Below, one piece after another: positions 1,797 to 35,908 of a stretch of 64,000 nt of DNA. Location of the stretch: positions 62,001 through 126,000 of the forward strand of contig NKIY01000009.1 of the NCBI GenBank assembly GCA_002256345.1, given 5' to 3'. The position numbers were made by a program, and so were the translations under genes. Positions within the stretch are counted from its first letter, which is position 1; each line of letters begins with the position of its first letter. Source of the DNA: Bradyrhizobiaceae bacterium PARB1 (GTDB taxonomy: Bacteria; Pseudomonadota; Alphaproteobacteria; Rhizobiales; Xanthobacteraceae). The notes under the pieces were generated by a model. It had not been told where the DNA came from and did not search any database. It saw nothing but the letters and a program-made list of their open reading frames with translations.

Positions 1797-3098
1797 TTAC
1801 GCCCCCGTCACGCGCCAGATCACATCGCCGACATCGTCGGCCACCAGCAGCGAGCCATCCGGCCCGAGCGTGACGCCTACCGGGCGGCCATAAGACGCCT
1901 TTTCGTCCGGTGCGAGGAAACCGGAGAGAATGTCGCGCGGCGGGCCGGAGGGCAGGCCGTTCTCGAATGGGATGAACACCACCTTGTAGCCGCTTAGCTT
2001 GCTGCGATTCCATGAGCCGTGCTGGCCGATCGCCATGCCGTCGGGGAAGCCGGGCAGCGTGCCGGCGGGTATCCAGCACAAGCCGAGCGAGGCGGTGTGG
2101 CCGCCGAGCGCGTAATCCGGCTTGATCGCGGTGGCGACCAAGGCCGGGTCCTGCGGCACGCGGTCGTCCACGATCTGGCCCCAGTAGCAATAGGGCCAGC
2201 CATAGAAGCCGCCATCTTTCACTGAGGTGAGATAATCCGGAGGCGTCTCGTCGCCGATGCCGTCGCGCTCGTTGACCACGGTCCAGAGTGCCCCTGTGGT
2301 TGGTTCGAAAGCAAGGCCGACCGGATTTCGCAGCCCGGCGCCGAAGATGCGGTAATCGCCGGTGGCGATATCGAGTTCATAGACCGCGGCGCGGCCTTGT
2401 TCGACCTCCATGCCGCTCTCGGCGATGTTGCTGAGCGAGCCGACGCCGATATAGAGCTTGGTGCCGTCGGGGCTCGGCAGGATACTGCGCGTCCAGTGGC
2501 CGCCGGTGCCGAAGCTGGTGAGCTTCTTGCCCTGTGCTTCGATGCGATCGGCACCCGGCGAGTAGGGGAACGCGACCACACCATCGACATTGCCGACATA
2601 GAAGGTTTCGCCGACCAGCGCCATGCCGAAAGGCTGGTTGAGATTCTCCATGAAGGTCTGCTGCACCTCGGCGACACCGTCGCCGTCCTTGTCGCGCAGG
2701 AGCGTGATGCGATTGGCGCTTTCGCCAAGAGCTGCTGCGCGGCGCATGGTGGCCTGCATGGCATAGCTGAACAGGCTGCGAATGCGCGTGGCCACCTGGG
2801 ATGCTTCGGCGATCAGCACGTCGCCATTCGGCAGCACATGGATCCAGCGCGGATGCTTGAGGCCGGTGGCGAAGGCATTGACCCGGAGTCCATCGGCGAC
2901 TGTGGGCAACTGGCCGGGGTCCCAGCCGCGCGCCGTGGGCATCTTGAGCGTCGGAATGGCGCCTTGCGGCTTGGCCTCGGGGACGACGGGAGCGTTGCCC
3001 CAGGCCGGGGTCGGCGTCTCGCTCTGGGCGCGGCGCCACAGGACCGCGCCTGCGCCGATCAGCGCGACCACGCGCGCGAATGTGCTCGTTATCGACAT
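1797..3098 (-). CDS. PQQ-dependent sugar dehydrogenase-like beta-propeller protein (sorbosone dehydrogenase family)
   Basis: A 433-aa protein with an N-terminal hydrophobic anchor or signal (ARVVALIGAGAVLW) and propeller-type repeats: DKDGDGVAEV, GLRNPVGLAFEP, GWPYCYWG and GPDGSLLVADD. This is the pattern of the soluble aldose/L-sorbosone dehydrogenase family, which act in the periplasm and often bind PQQ. The open frame continues 47 codons upstream, but the ATG at 3098 has a purine-rich GGGGGAC ribosome site and begins the hydrophobic leader. Substrate and cofactor are not shown by the sequence. No pqq genes lie nearby. Confidence 0.82.
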   Translation of the reverse strand: MSITSTFARVVALIGAGAVLWRRAQSETPTPAWGNAPVVPEAKPQGAIPTLKMPTARGWDPGQLPTVADGLRVNAFATGLKHPRWIHVLPNGDVLIAEASQVATRIRSLFSYAMQATMRRAAALGESANRITLLRDKDGDGVAEVQQTFMENLNQPFGMALVGETFYVGNVDGVVAFPYSPGADRIEAQGKKLTSFGTGGHWTRSILPSPDGTKLYIGVGSLSNIAESGMEVEQGRAAVYELDIATGDYRIFGAGLRNPVGLAFEPTTGALWTVVNERDGIGDETPPDYLTSVKDGGFYGWPYCYWGQIVDDRVPQDPALVATAIKPDYALGGHTASLGLCWIPAGTLPGFPDGMAIGQHGSWNRSKLSGYKVVFIPFENGLPSGPPRDILSGFLAPDEKASYGRPVGVTLGPDGSLLVADDVGDVIWRVTGA

Positions 3099-3215
3099 GG
3101 AAGTCCCCCAGAGGATCGGGCCGAGGCGGCCGAAGATGGGGGAGGTTATAGAGCAATTTGTCGATGCAAGTACGCGATGGCACCTGTGCGTGGCCGGGAT
3201 GCCTGAACTCCGCCT

Positions 3216-3337
3216 TGTCCGGGACGCGATGCAGCACATCGTGCTGCTTCGCAGAGCCGGGACCGCATCAACCGCTGGCGTTCGCGACGGTCCCGGCTCC
3301 GCGGAGCAACGCTACGCGTTGCGCCGCGTCCGGGACA
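3216..3337. repeat. Dispersed palindromic repeat, two inverted arms of about 49 bp
   Basis: An arm at 3216-3263 (tgtccgggacgcgatgcagc...) is repeated in inverted, diverged form at 3289-3337, separated by about 25 bp. Both arms end in the GTCCCGG-type core seen in intergenic repeats of Bradyrhizobium and Rhodopseudomonas. It fills the gap between the dehydrogenase-like gene start and the 3' end of the binding-protein gene. It could fold as a long hairpin in RNA. Confidence 0.75.
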
Positions 3338-3345
3338 CGAAGCTG

Positions 3346-4314
3346 TCAGTCCGCGAACTGACCCGTCGCCTTGATGATCGGAGCCCAGCGATCGATTTCG
3401 CTGTCGAGCTTCGCCTTCAGCGCTGCCGGGGTGGCCTGGTCCTGCGGCACCACATCGGTGTTGATGTCGGTGAAGCGCTTGACGAGGTCGGGGTCGCGCA
3501 GCGATGCCTGCAATGCCTTGGCGAGCTTCTGGACGATCTCGTCCGGCGTGCCCTTCGGCGCATAGATGCCGTGCCAGGCACCGACTTCAAAACCTTTCAA
3601 GCCGGCTTCATCCGCAGTGGGCAGGTCGGGCATCGACGACAGCCGCGCCTTGGTGGTCACTGCATAACCCTTCACCAGCTTGTTGCCGATGGGGCCGGTG
3701 GTGTTGGTGGTCTGGTCGCAAGTGAGGTCGATCTGGCCGGACATCAGATCGTTCATCACCGGGCCGTTGCCCTTGTAGGGGATCGTCTGAATCTGCTTGT
3801 CCATGGCGGTCATGAACAGCATGCCGCAGAGATGCGAGGCGGCGCCGAGGCCGGCATTGCCGAAGGTCATCTTGTCGCCGTTTGCCTTGATGTAGGTCAC
3901 CAGCTCGGCCAGCGTGTTCGGCGGCAAGTCCTTCTTCGAGATGATGGTCATCGGCGCATTGGTGATCAGGCCGATCGGCGCGAAGGCGGTCTTGGTGTCG
4001 TAGGGCAGCTTGCGATACAGCGTCGCCGCGGTGGAAATGCCGATGTGATGGATCAGGATCGTGTAGCCGTCCGGCTCGGCGCGGGCCGCGCGTGCGGTGG
4101 CGATGGTGCCGCCGGCGCCGGTGGCGTTTTCGACAATGATGGTTTGGCCGAGCGCCTTGCCCATGCTCTGCGCGGTGACGCGTGCCACTGTGTCGGTCGG
4201 GCCGCCGGCCGCGAACGGCACCAGCATGGTGATCGGCTTGTTGGGATAGCCCTGCGCGAAGGCCGCGGTGGTGGCGAGCGTGAGCGCAAATGCAAGTGTG
4301 GCGGTGGCTTTCAT
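3346..4314 (-). CDS. Bug/TctC-family tripartite tricarboxylate transporter substrate-binding protein
   Basis: A 322-aa periplasmic binding protein with signal peptide (residues 1-20, ending AFA) and the family opening YPNKPITMLVPFAAGGPTDT, followed by PDGYTILIHHIG and the YKGNGPVMNDLMSGQID region. The start at 4314 has a GGAGGAA ribosome site. It lies downstream of the tartrate dehydrogenase-like gene on the same strand, so the ligand may be a C4 dicarboxylate or hydroxy acid. No TctA/TctB membrane partners are in the window, as is common for this expanded family. Confidence 0.9.
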   Translation of the reverse strand: MKATATLAFALTLATTAAFAQGYPNKPITMLVPFAAGGPTDTVARVTAQSMGKALGQTIIVENATGAGGTIATARAARAEPDGYTILIHHIGISTAATLYRKLPYDTKTAFAPIGLITNAPMTIISKKDLPPNTLAELVTYIKANGDKMTFGNAGLGAASHLCGMLFMTAMDKQIQTIPYKGNGPVMNDLMSGQIDLTCDQTTNTTGPIGNKLVKGYAVTTKARLSSMPDLPTADEAGLKGFEVGAWHGIYAPKGTPDEIVQKLAKALQASLRDPDLVKRFTDINTDVVPQDQATPAALKAKLDSEIDRWAPIIKATGQFAD

Positions 4315-34207: not shown

Positions 34208-35908
34208 ATGAAGAGTTTGTTCGCCGTCGCTGTTTTGTCTCTGCCGGCTACGATCGGGCTGGCGCATGGGGCGGATCTGTCCCGTCGCCCCGTTGCGCAG
34301 GTCTGGAACTGGACGGGGCTCTATGTCGGTGCCCATATCGGTGCCGGCTGGAGCCAGTCGAAGATCAGCGACGACCTCTACAACCCCGTCATCTACGGCA
34401 ACAATGTGCGCACTGCTGCCGTCCTTGGCGGCGGTCAGGTGGGCTATAACTGGCAGGCGCCGGGCACTGCCTGGGTGTTTGGCGCCGAGGGTGAGCTGAG
34501 TGCGCTTGGCGCGGATGGCAGCGGCACCTGCTTTGCGGTGTCGGGCTTGTTCGTGTCGTCCAATTGCCGCGTGCGGCACGAAATGACGGGTAGCCTGACT
34601 GCGCGTCTCGGCTATGCCATGGGGGCTGCCGGCCGCACCCTCGTTTATGCCAAAGGTGGCGGCGCATGGCTGCGCGAGACGATGGACATCAGCAATCGGT
34701 TTGGCGCAGCGTCGCAGCGCGACGATCGTTTCGGCTGGACGGTCGGTGTCGGCGTCGAGCAGGCGATCGCGCCGGCATGGTCCATGAAGCTCGCTTATGA
34801 CTACACGGATTTCGGCGCCATGCCGATCAGCGCTCCGAACACCCGGGGCCTGGCCTTCGATCCGTTCCCCTTCTATGTCGATATCCCCGGCCATTCCGCA
34901 CAGGCCAGTCAGGTCTTGCAGACGGTGAAGCTCGGCCTCAACCTCAAGCTCGGCGAAGATGCCGGCGCGCGCTGGGATACAGTGTCGCCGAGTCCGCTCG
35001 GCCTGCCCGTGAAGGCGATGGCAGCGTCGCTGCCGGTAGGGACGGAGTTCGAAGTCGGCGGCCGCGTCTGGTATTCGTTCGGCCGTTTCCAGAAGGATCT
35101 CGGCTCCTATCCGGCGCCGCAGATCCAGGATCCGCTCAATTCGCGCCTGACCTATACGAACGAGACTGCGTCGGGTGAATTGTTCGGTCGCCTCGATACG
35201 GCATCGAATATCGTCATCAAGGGCTTTGTCGGCGGCGGCAGCCTGTCGCGCGGCAAGATGCATGACGAGGACTGGCTGATCCAGAACGACTCCGTGCCTT
35301 ACACCAACACGCTGTCTGATCCCGTCGTCGGCAGCATCACCTATGCCACCGGCGATCTCGGCTACGACTTCATCCGCGATCGCTCGGGTAAATTCGCGGC
35401 GTTCATCGGCTACAACTATCTACGCGACGACAAGACCGCCAAGGGCTGCATCCAGCTCGCGGACCAGCTTTTCTACGCGCCATGTGCACAGCCGGTGTCC
35501 AATACGGGGCCGGGGATCAGCGAGAAGAATGAATGGTACTCGCTGCGCATCGGTCTCAACGGCGTGGTCGCGCTCACGGATCGGCTGAGCTTGACGGCAG
35601 ATGCGGCCTATCTGCCCTATGTGCGCTTCCGGGGCGTCGACGTTCATCATCAGCGCAACGAGGCCGTCAAGGACTCGCAGGAATATGGCACCGGCCAGGG
35701 CGTTCAGCTCGAAGCCATCCTGTCCTATGCCGTCACCCCGTCTTTCAGCATCGGCGCCGGCGGGCGTTACTGGGCGATGTGGGCGACGCGCACCGATGCC
35801 TATACGAACGCGTTCGGCATCCGCGGCCTTTATCAGGCGCTGCCGGTCCGCACCGAACGTTTTGGCGGCTTCCTGCAGGCGTCTTACACCTTCGACAGCG
35901 CACGATGA
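34208..35908 (+). CDS. Outer-membrane fusion: Omp25-like barrel plus omptin-type protease domain
   Basis: A 566-aa protein with signal peptide (residues 1-21, ending AHGA). Residues about 25-260 form an Omp25/RopB/porin-like barrel (WTGLYVGAHIGAGWS, GGQVGYNWQ, DDRFGWTVGVGVE, LKLAYDYTDFG-like segment KLAYDYTDFGAMP). Residues about 275-566 resemble an omptin: VIKGFVGGG, the acidic catalytic motif MHDEDW (Asp353, Asp355) where OmpT has MVDQDW, and VDVHH (Asp478, His480) where OmpT has the Asp-His pair. The spacing and length fit omptins (about 290 aa). The protein ends in an aromatic beta-strand (QASYTF). The omptin call is my motif alignment, not a search. It stands as a single gene. Confidence 0.75.
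   Translation: MKSLFAVAVLSLPATIGLAHGADLSRRPVAQVWNWTGLYVGAHIGAGWSQSKISDDLYNPVIYGNNVRTAAVLGGGQVGYNWQAPGTAWVFGAEGELSALGADGSGTCFAVSGLFVSSNCRVRHEMTGSLTARLGYAMGAAGRTLVYAKGGGAWLRETMDISNRFGAASQRDDRFGWTVGVGVEQAIAPAWSMKLAYDYTDFGAMPISAPNTRGLAFDPFPFYVDIPGHSAQASQVLQTVKLGLNLKLGEDAGARWDTVSPSPLGLPVKAMAASLPVGTEFEVGGRVWYSFGRFQKDLGSYPAPQIQDPLNSRLTYTNETASGELFGRLDTASNIVIKGFVGGGSLSRGKMHDEDWLIQNDSVPYTNTLSDPVVGSITYATGDLGYDFIRDRSGKFAAFIGYNYLRDDKTAKGCIQLADQLFYAPCAQPVSNTGPGISEKNEWYSLRIGLNGVVALTDRLSLTADAAYLPYVRFRGVDVHHQRNEAVKDSQEYGTGQGVQLEAILSYAVTPSFSIGAGGRYWAMWATRTDAYTNAFGIRGLYQALPVRTERFGGFLQASYTFDSAR

Follow-up and report, generated by a model that had tools for sequence, protein, structure and literature searches.

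The locus raises the question of whether one open reading frame encodes two complete outer-membrane barrels in a single chain, and whether the second of these is an omptin-type protease. The gene lies at positions 34208..35908 (+ strand, stop codon included) of the window, the whole stretch of 64,000 nucleotides that was analysed, and was defined as a 566-aa two-barrel protein by ORF translation and Pfam searches.

Layout of the fused protein

An earlier, sequence-only reading of this DNA had described a 566-aa ORF with a small OMP-type barrel in its first half, followed by the motifs MHDEDW (Asp353/Asp355) and VDVHH (Asp478/His480). The translation placed both motifs exactly there, and the first half matched PF13505 (OMP_b-brl) with an E value of 7.8e-19 (residues 30–203, 68.9 bits against a cut-off of 28.7). 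The protein begins with a signal-peptide-like sequence (residues 1–22, 34208..34273, + strand), the cut site of which was placed by inspection; mature numbering is therefore precursor numbering minus 22. The N-terminal barrel, of the 8-strand Omp25/OmpA type, occupies residues 23–247 (34274..34948, + strand) based on PF13505, PF01389 and the modelled strands. A disordered linker follows (residues 248–279, 34949..35044, + strand), in which the 10-residue mean pLDDT fell to 38. The remainder, residues 280–563 (35045..35896, + strand), was assigned to a 10-strand omptin-type barrel from PF01278, the model and Foldseek.

The AlphaFold2 model of the full protein, built on 63 aligned sequences, had a pLDDT of 89.5 and a pTM of 0.86. 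Eight main strands were found within mature residues 15–225 and ten within mature residues 258–541, separated by a low-confidence stretch around mature residues 226–257. The strands of the first barrel extended to about residue 247, and their number is that expected of Omp25-like barrels. The proposal of two barrels in one polypeptide thus held in the predicted 8+10 strand model, with Pfam matches to both halves. A single large barrel of 18 strands was not favoured, since the model gives separate sets of 8 and 10 main strands with the disordered linker between them. The two barrels were also rejected as internal duplicates, the N- and C-barrel profiles aligning over 32 columns with a probability of 6.8 and an E value of 0.0053.

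Each barrel carries a pair of cysteines. Cys108 and Cys120 of the N-barrel (34529..34567, + strand) were Cys in 83/83 rows with letters at each column. The C-barrel pair, Cys414 and Cys426 (35447..35485, + strand), was Cys in 80/86 and 80/85 rows, respectively, and OmpT has no Cys at either column. A Cys108–Cys120 disulfide in the N-barrel and a Cys414–Cys426 disulfide in the C-barrel would be expected.

The omptin-type barrel and its predicted active site

For the C-terminal half, the earlier reading had named the lack of an omptin match as a ground for refutation. A Pfam Omptin match above the curated cut-off was observed, the C half searched on its own scoring 28.9 bits and the whole protein 26.8 bits against a PF01278 cut-off of 22.6. 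The window protein was the sole PF01278 match in its genome at E values up to 10. DUF481 matched the C half below its own Pfam cut-off, and NCBIfam returned no family for this half at E values up to 10. When the single whole sequence was searched against solved structures, only chance-level matches and no omptin were obtained, so a profile was needed; with the profile of 63 C-domains, solved omptin structures were matched at an E value of 1.3e-6. Alignment of this profile with E. coli K-12 OmpT by hhalign gave a probability of 92.1 (E 6.4e-7), compared to 0.1 for the N-barrel profile used as a control.

The C-domain modelled alone had a pLDDT of 91.6, and its Foldseek comparison with solved structures placed omptin entries at ranks 1–11 among the 50 matches listed. 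For these 11, the TM scores reached 0.81 by query and 0.87 by target, with rmsd values of 2.4–5.0 and sequence identities to omptins of 14–17% in the structure alignments. The entry at rank 12 was a different barrel (E 3.3e-8). Omptins again occupied ranks 1–11 when the full model was the query, and the C-barrel model superposed on OmpT and Pla over almost the whole of its own length. Both the Pfam score and, in the predicted model, the 10-strand fold are therefore those of the omptin class. The observations of the sequence-only reading were correct, and its interpretation stood for the most part, the omptin-type nature of the second barrel being supported by Pfam, fold and residues. Two findings extend that reading: many other genomes carry the fusion, and the substrate pocket departs from that of OmpT.

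The catalytic residues of OmpT are Asp83, Asp85, Asp210 and His212 (PMC11410778). In hhalign and in the 68-row alignment, these mature OmpT positions coincided with Asp353, Asp355, Asp478 and His480, so that Asp353-Glu-Asp355 (35264..35272, + strand) is the predicted catalytic Asp pair and Asp478-Val-His480 (35639..35647, + strand) the predicted Asp-His pair. The full tetrad was present in 77 of the 85 aligned proteins that have both motifs, window copy included; individually, Asp353 was found in 79, Asp355 in 84, Asp478 in 84 and His480 in 85. Each of the eight exceptions departed at one residue (Asn353 in six, Tyr355 in one and Glu478 in one), and some paralogues may for this reason be inactive. 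At least 98% identity was reached at 34 of the 295 C-domain positions, including Asp355, Asp478 and His480 but not Asp353; judged from the alignment, the predicted tetrad is thus strongly, but not uniquely, conserved. In the model, Asp353 and Asp355 are located at one end of strand 3, and Asp478 and His480 at the same end of strand 7. With both ends of the chain presumed periplasmic, this shared end would be the outer side.

The pocket residues pointed to a different substrate preference. In OmpT, the preference for dibasic sites is set by Glu27 and Asp208, which lie at the base of the S1 pocket, together with Asp97 in S1' (PMC11410778). At the Asp208 column, the window protein has Gly476 (35633..35635, + strand), the column being Gly in 54 and Ala in 10 of 67 rows. 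The Glu27 column corresponds to Lys296 (Lys 33, Trp 15, Tyr 10 and Asn 7 of 67), in a region outside the hhalign match where the alignment is unsure; the ungapped reading would give Gly292, which is also not acidic. At Asp97, a gap was found in 67/67 rows. The window protein therefore does not carry the OmpT-type residues for dibasic specificity. Because the acidic S1 residues of OmpT are replaced, its targets are expected to differ from those of OmpT, and it is probably not a plain dibasic-site protease.

The LPS-contact residues of OmpT are Tyr134, Glu136, Arg138, Arg175 and Lys226. Two of these five are kept in the window protein, as Tyr402 and Arg406, and the others are occupied by Tyr404, Glu442 and Gly494. 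The listed residues were mostly not kept.

Distribution, architectures and the probable bll1872 counterpart

A contig search with the window C half gave 91 relatives, from which 80 loci were retained, and 87 distinct ORF rows from these, the window locus itself and same-genus loci were aligned. One open frame covered both barrels (>400 of 530 positions filled) in 82 of the 87. The other five were two ORFs cut by contig ends (L020 and L096), one with the N part outside the frame (L067) and the two halves of a single split copy (L062). The C-domain profile matched 147/391 genomes of the family, 70/397 of the order (some shared with the family set) and 2/387 of the class sample (both already in the family set), and the window C half matched 7/18 genomes of the genus. 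Among 72,556 plasmid records, nine matched, from Bradyrhizobium, Methylobacterium, Methylorubrum, Mesorhizobium and Tardiphaga. The two-barrel omptin fusion is common, but far from universal, in these bacteria. No named occurrence outside Hyphomicrobiales was found in the plasmid, family, order and class-sample searches; an extension beyond the order was considered and dropped, Reyranella being classified in Hyphomicrobiales by NCBI. A copy with a C half 60% identical is carried on a 99.8-kb plasmid (NZ_CP135530.1, 68783-69631) of Tardiphaga sp. 709, a strain sampled from Astragalus roots.

The fetched loci contained 133 distinct C-domain ORFs: 110 with the N- then the C-barrel, 20 with the C-barrel alone and three with four barrels. 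A few of the 110 are broken pieces, e.g. L139 and L062. By eye, 13 of the 20 C-alone ORFs were single-barrel omptins that begin with a signal-peptide-like sequence of their own; the remainder were pieces of broken fusions (L062, L067 and L135), cuts at locus ends (L020, L096 and L154) and one ORF, L165, that is the end of the longer protein L170. The four-barrel frames, recognised by profile and alignment, encode 996–1101 residues (L129:1-3021, − strand; L137:433-3420, − strand; L130:2178-5480, + strand) in the order N-N-C-N twice and N-C-N-N once. In the alignment all three keep the full tetrad. Their Pfam Omptin scores were below the cut-off, and the C-domain profile alone detected the domain clearly. 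In L128, the N-C arrangement is preceded by about 480 additional residues. The 1133-aa frame L170 (L170:155-3553, − strand) consists of TPR-like repeats, then a further long stretch, possibly a barrel as well, and an omptin-like domain at the C-terminus; Pfam Omptin gave no match to L170 at an E value of 0.01, and the domain was seen by profile in L165.

A quick IQ-TREE analysis with SH-aLRT support only was performed on 67 C-domains plus OmpT. The reduction from 125 to 67 removed broken or contig-cut sequences (L020, L123, L067 and L135), C-domains shorter than about 240 residues and rows >75% identical to one kept. In this tree, 46 two-barrel fusions and L128 formed one clade (SH-aLRT 99), outside which were found L154, L159/L167, L160 and the four-barrel group; barrel-omptin fusions thus also occur apart from this clade. 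The starred branches of the tree force at least four changes of the fused label; the root is unsure since OmpT sits on a very long branch. Distances between N-barrels and between C-barrels were correlated in the 63-row set (Mantel r 0.925, 0/999 permutations as high), and the two parts have therefore travelled together. That barrels of the same kinds were fused repeatedly is an argument for a benefit of their joining. It would also be explained if small barrels fuse easily in these bacteria, and further barrel fusions do occur in the window genome. Two ORFs of that genome, of 731 and 669 aa (L003:127-2319, − strand; L004:1468-3474, + strand), combine an Omp25-type barrel with an OprB porin, the layout given in PMC4827864 for MnoP. 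On contig C11 of the same genome, adjoining ORFs of 472 and 484 aa (L172:517-1932 and 2072-3523, − strand) each encode two Omp25-type barrels.

In the window, the gene is preceded by htpG and followed by an ABC-transporter substrate-binding-protein gene (names by inspection). Both neighbours were kept at four of ten loci tested (L018, L019, L021 and L024), and the other six showed neither in the DNA examined. Upstream of the window gene there was one weak sigma-70-like match, within chance, and no sigma-54 site (best match with five mismatches); this copy is probably expressed outside symbiosis. Among 76 distinct fused ORFs, a sigma-54-like site with up to two mismatches was found upstream of 28 in the sense and six in the antisense direction, about five being expected from shuffles. 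With up to one mismatch, the counts were 19 and 0, the 19 being inflated by relatedness (18 from Bradyrhizobium and one, L038, from Rhodopseudomonas). In a Bradyrhizobium subgroup, the near-palindrome TGTTGCGAAGACAACA or close variants of it occurred 54–56 bases before a TGGCCTAGATCCTGCA-type site, about 225–237 bases before the N-barrel (L049, L052, L060, L064, L072, L074, L078, L080, L089 and L094). It is a possible operator.

A very probable counterpart with known expression is bll1872 (Bdiaspc4_09500) of Bradyrhizobium diazoefficiens, listed in the passages drawn on from PMC6515984 as an ‘omptin family outer membrane protease’. There it is a target of NifA and RpoN, with the protein up by a log2 value of 4.7 in microoxia and the transcript 115.4-fold up in soybean bacteroids. 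In the corresponding passages of PMC8125078, the protein is assigned to the outer membrane and the gene to the NifA regulon, with a transcript ranking in the top 10 in A. afraspera; those of PMC4926349 list a hypothetical protein. Genome G303 has a minus-strand frame of 633 aa at 2.025 Mb, with OMP_b-brl and Omptin matches (Omptin E 2e-10). At a distance of about 10 kb beyond the fusion, a LuxR-type gene followed by rpoN is encoded on the plus strand. Since this order and these strands match those of bll1872, blr1880 and blr1883 (names from the passages of PMC6515984 and PMC4926349), the 633-aa two-barrel frame is very probably bll1872. An identical frame was found in B. huanghuaihaiense (L081), and this is identical to the window protein at 83/217 N-barrel and 111/276 C-barrel positions. 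Upstream of the bll1872-like gene, a sigma-54-like site with one mismatch was present, and no NifA element of the form TGT-N10-ACA was found in the 500 bases scanned. G303 has three C-domain matches, including the 633-aa fusion and L139, a second fusion copy interrupted by stops at about 2.2545 Mb (− strand). The Mesorhizobium ompT copies with nod boxes in the part of PMC7643969 consulted may also be related to the window family.

Should bll1872 be this bacteroid-expressed form, as its locus indicates, surface proteolysis would become a testable function for a symbiotic gene with strong induction, and the fusion could plausibly trim plant or bacterial surface peptides there. A bolder proposal is that omptins of Hyphomicrobiales were repeatedly built into chains of two to four barrels, the extra barrels being working parts of a non-dibasic surface protease, the NifA-controlled version of which processes host-plant peptides in bacteroids; as a whole, this is doubtful.

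Proposed mechanism and comparison with known systems

The preferred reading is that the window protein is a surface protease of the omptin type made as one chain of two outer-membrane barrels, to which we assign a probability of about three in four on the basis of sequence and model. The chain would first be exported by Sec. Each barrel ends in a strand resembling the pattern that we take to be the BAM signal, and the two would fold separately, side by side in the outer membrane. As the strand numbers are even and a linker is present, the linker is presumed to be periplasmic and would tie the barrels together. The 10-strand barrel, with its tetrad predicted at the extracellular rim, would probably cleave peptides or proteins at the cell surface. 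The 8-strand barrel, for which the earlier reading had suggested an anchoring, LPS-binding or substrate-presenting part, is probably accessory, and may position the protease among LPS or capture substrate.

That the C-barrel is instead a non-enzymatic protein of omptin fold, such as a PomS/T-type pore or adhesin whose tetrad is kept for structural reasons, was judged improbable. In the relevant section of a 2016 survey, domains of this kind are grouped with the PomS/T pore-forming proteins and their similarity to omptins is called limited (PMC4827864), the S1 and LPS-contact residues are changed, and the bll1872-like protein has a weak match to Pfam Pom (18.3 bits, E 0.0016). The latter score is below the Pom cut-off of 22.4, however, whereas Omptin exceeds its cut-off in both the window and the bll1872-like proteins, and omptins came first in the structure search. 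Conservation also argues for an enzyme: in the tree set, Asp478 and His480 were present in 67/67 rows, Asp353 in 64 and Asp355 in 66, with the full tetrad absent in three rows and found in 12/12 solo and 5/5 multi-domain rows.

Cleavage of the chain in the linker after export would yield two separate outer-membrane proteins, the fusion then serving only for co-expression. The modelled disorder of the linker and its varying length are consistent with this, as are the BAM-like terminal strands of both barrels. Against it, the length stays within 22–35 residues (median 31) in 63/63 aligned rows, window included, and other barrel orders and numbers exist (N-N-C-N and N-C-N-N), so we regard processing as unlikely. 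An assembly or annotation artefact is scarcely credible and was refuted by the many independent fused copies: the single frame across both barrels recurs in 82/87 distinct ORFs from many assemblies, in the same place between htpG and the substrate-binding-protein gene at the four loci named above.

Omptins, which we take to be peptidase family A26, are single barrels. The window protein shares with OmpT and PF01278 the 10-strand barrel of the model, the Asp-Asp/Asp-His tetrad at the predicted outer rim and the Pfam score. It differs from OmpT in that the C-barrel is fused behind an 8-strand barrel, in the replacement of the S1 acids Glu27 and Asp208 and of most LPS-contact residues, and in the presence of Cys414 and Cys426.

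The closest described protein is TCDB 1.B.72.2.3 (PMC4827864). This alphaproteobacterial protein of 577 aa begins with a BRP barrel and ends in a PomS/T domain, and by description alone it has a similar size and the same order and type of domains. The same survey gives a 1086-aa protein with TPRs and PomS/T; by size and order, the two look like the N-C and L170 forms. It notes limited similarity of the BRP and PomS/T fusions to omptins and files them as pore-forming, and its section on 1.B.72.2.3 does not mention a protease tetrad, specificity or expression. What bll1872 has in common with the window gene is that the frame found where it is expected encodes a two-barrel fusion, and it differs in its membership of the NifA regulon (PMC6515984) and in the sigma-54-like site upstream; the passages on bll1872 in PMC6515984, PMC8125078 and PMC4926349 mention no two barrels. 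In the portions of the open-licence literature covered, no paper on fused omptin beta-barrels in Alphaproteobacteria was found, nor any account of the intact tetrad, the changed S1 pocket, four-barrel omptins or a two-barrel bll1872.

Two barrels in one chain are not new, since multi-barrel outer-membrane proteins have been described as a new class by Solan and co-workers (in the part of PMC11494523 consulted) and the 577-aa fusion was already on record; MnoP likewise is a fusion with more than one complete barrel per chain (PMC4827864). The window protein shares with this class at least two complete barrels per chain, here in a predicted model. In contrast to the multi-barrel proteins described, one of its barrels is a likely enzyme. 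Alphaproteobacteria of soil and root nodules have a large family of omptins with two or four barrels in which the tetrad is intact and the specificity pocket altered, and this family could serve to test how an outer-membrane enzyme is affected by a second barrel.
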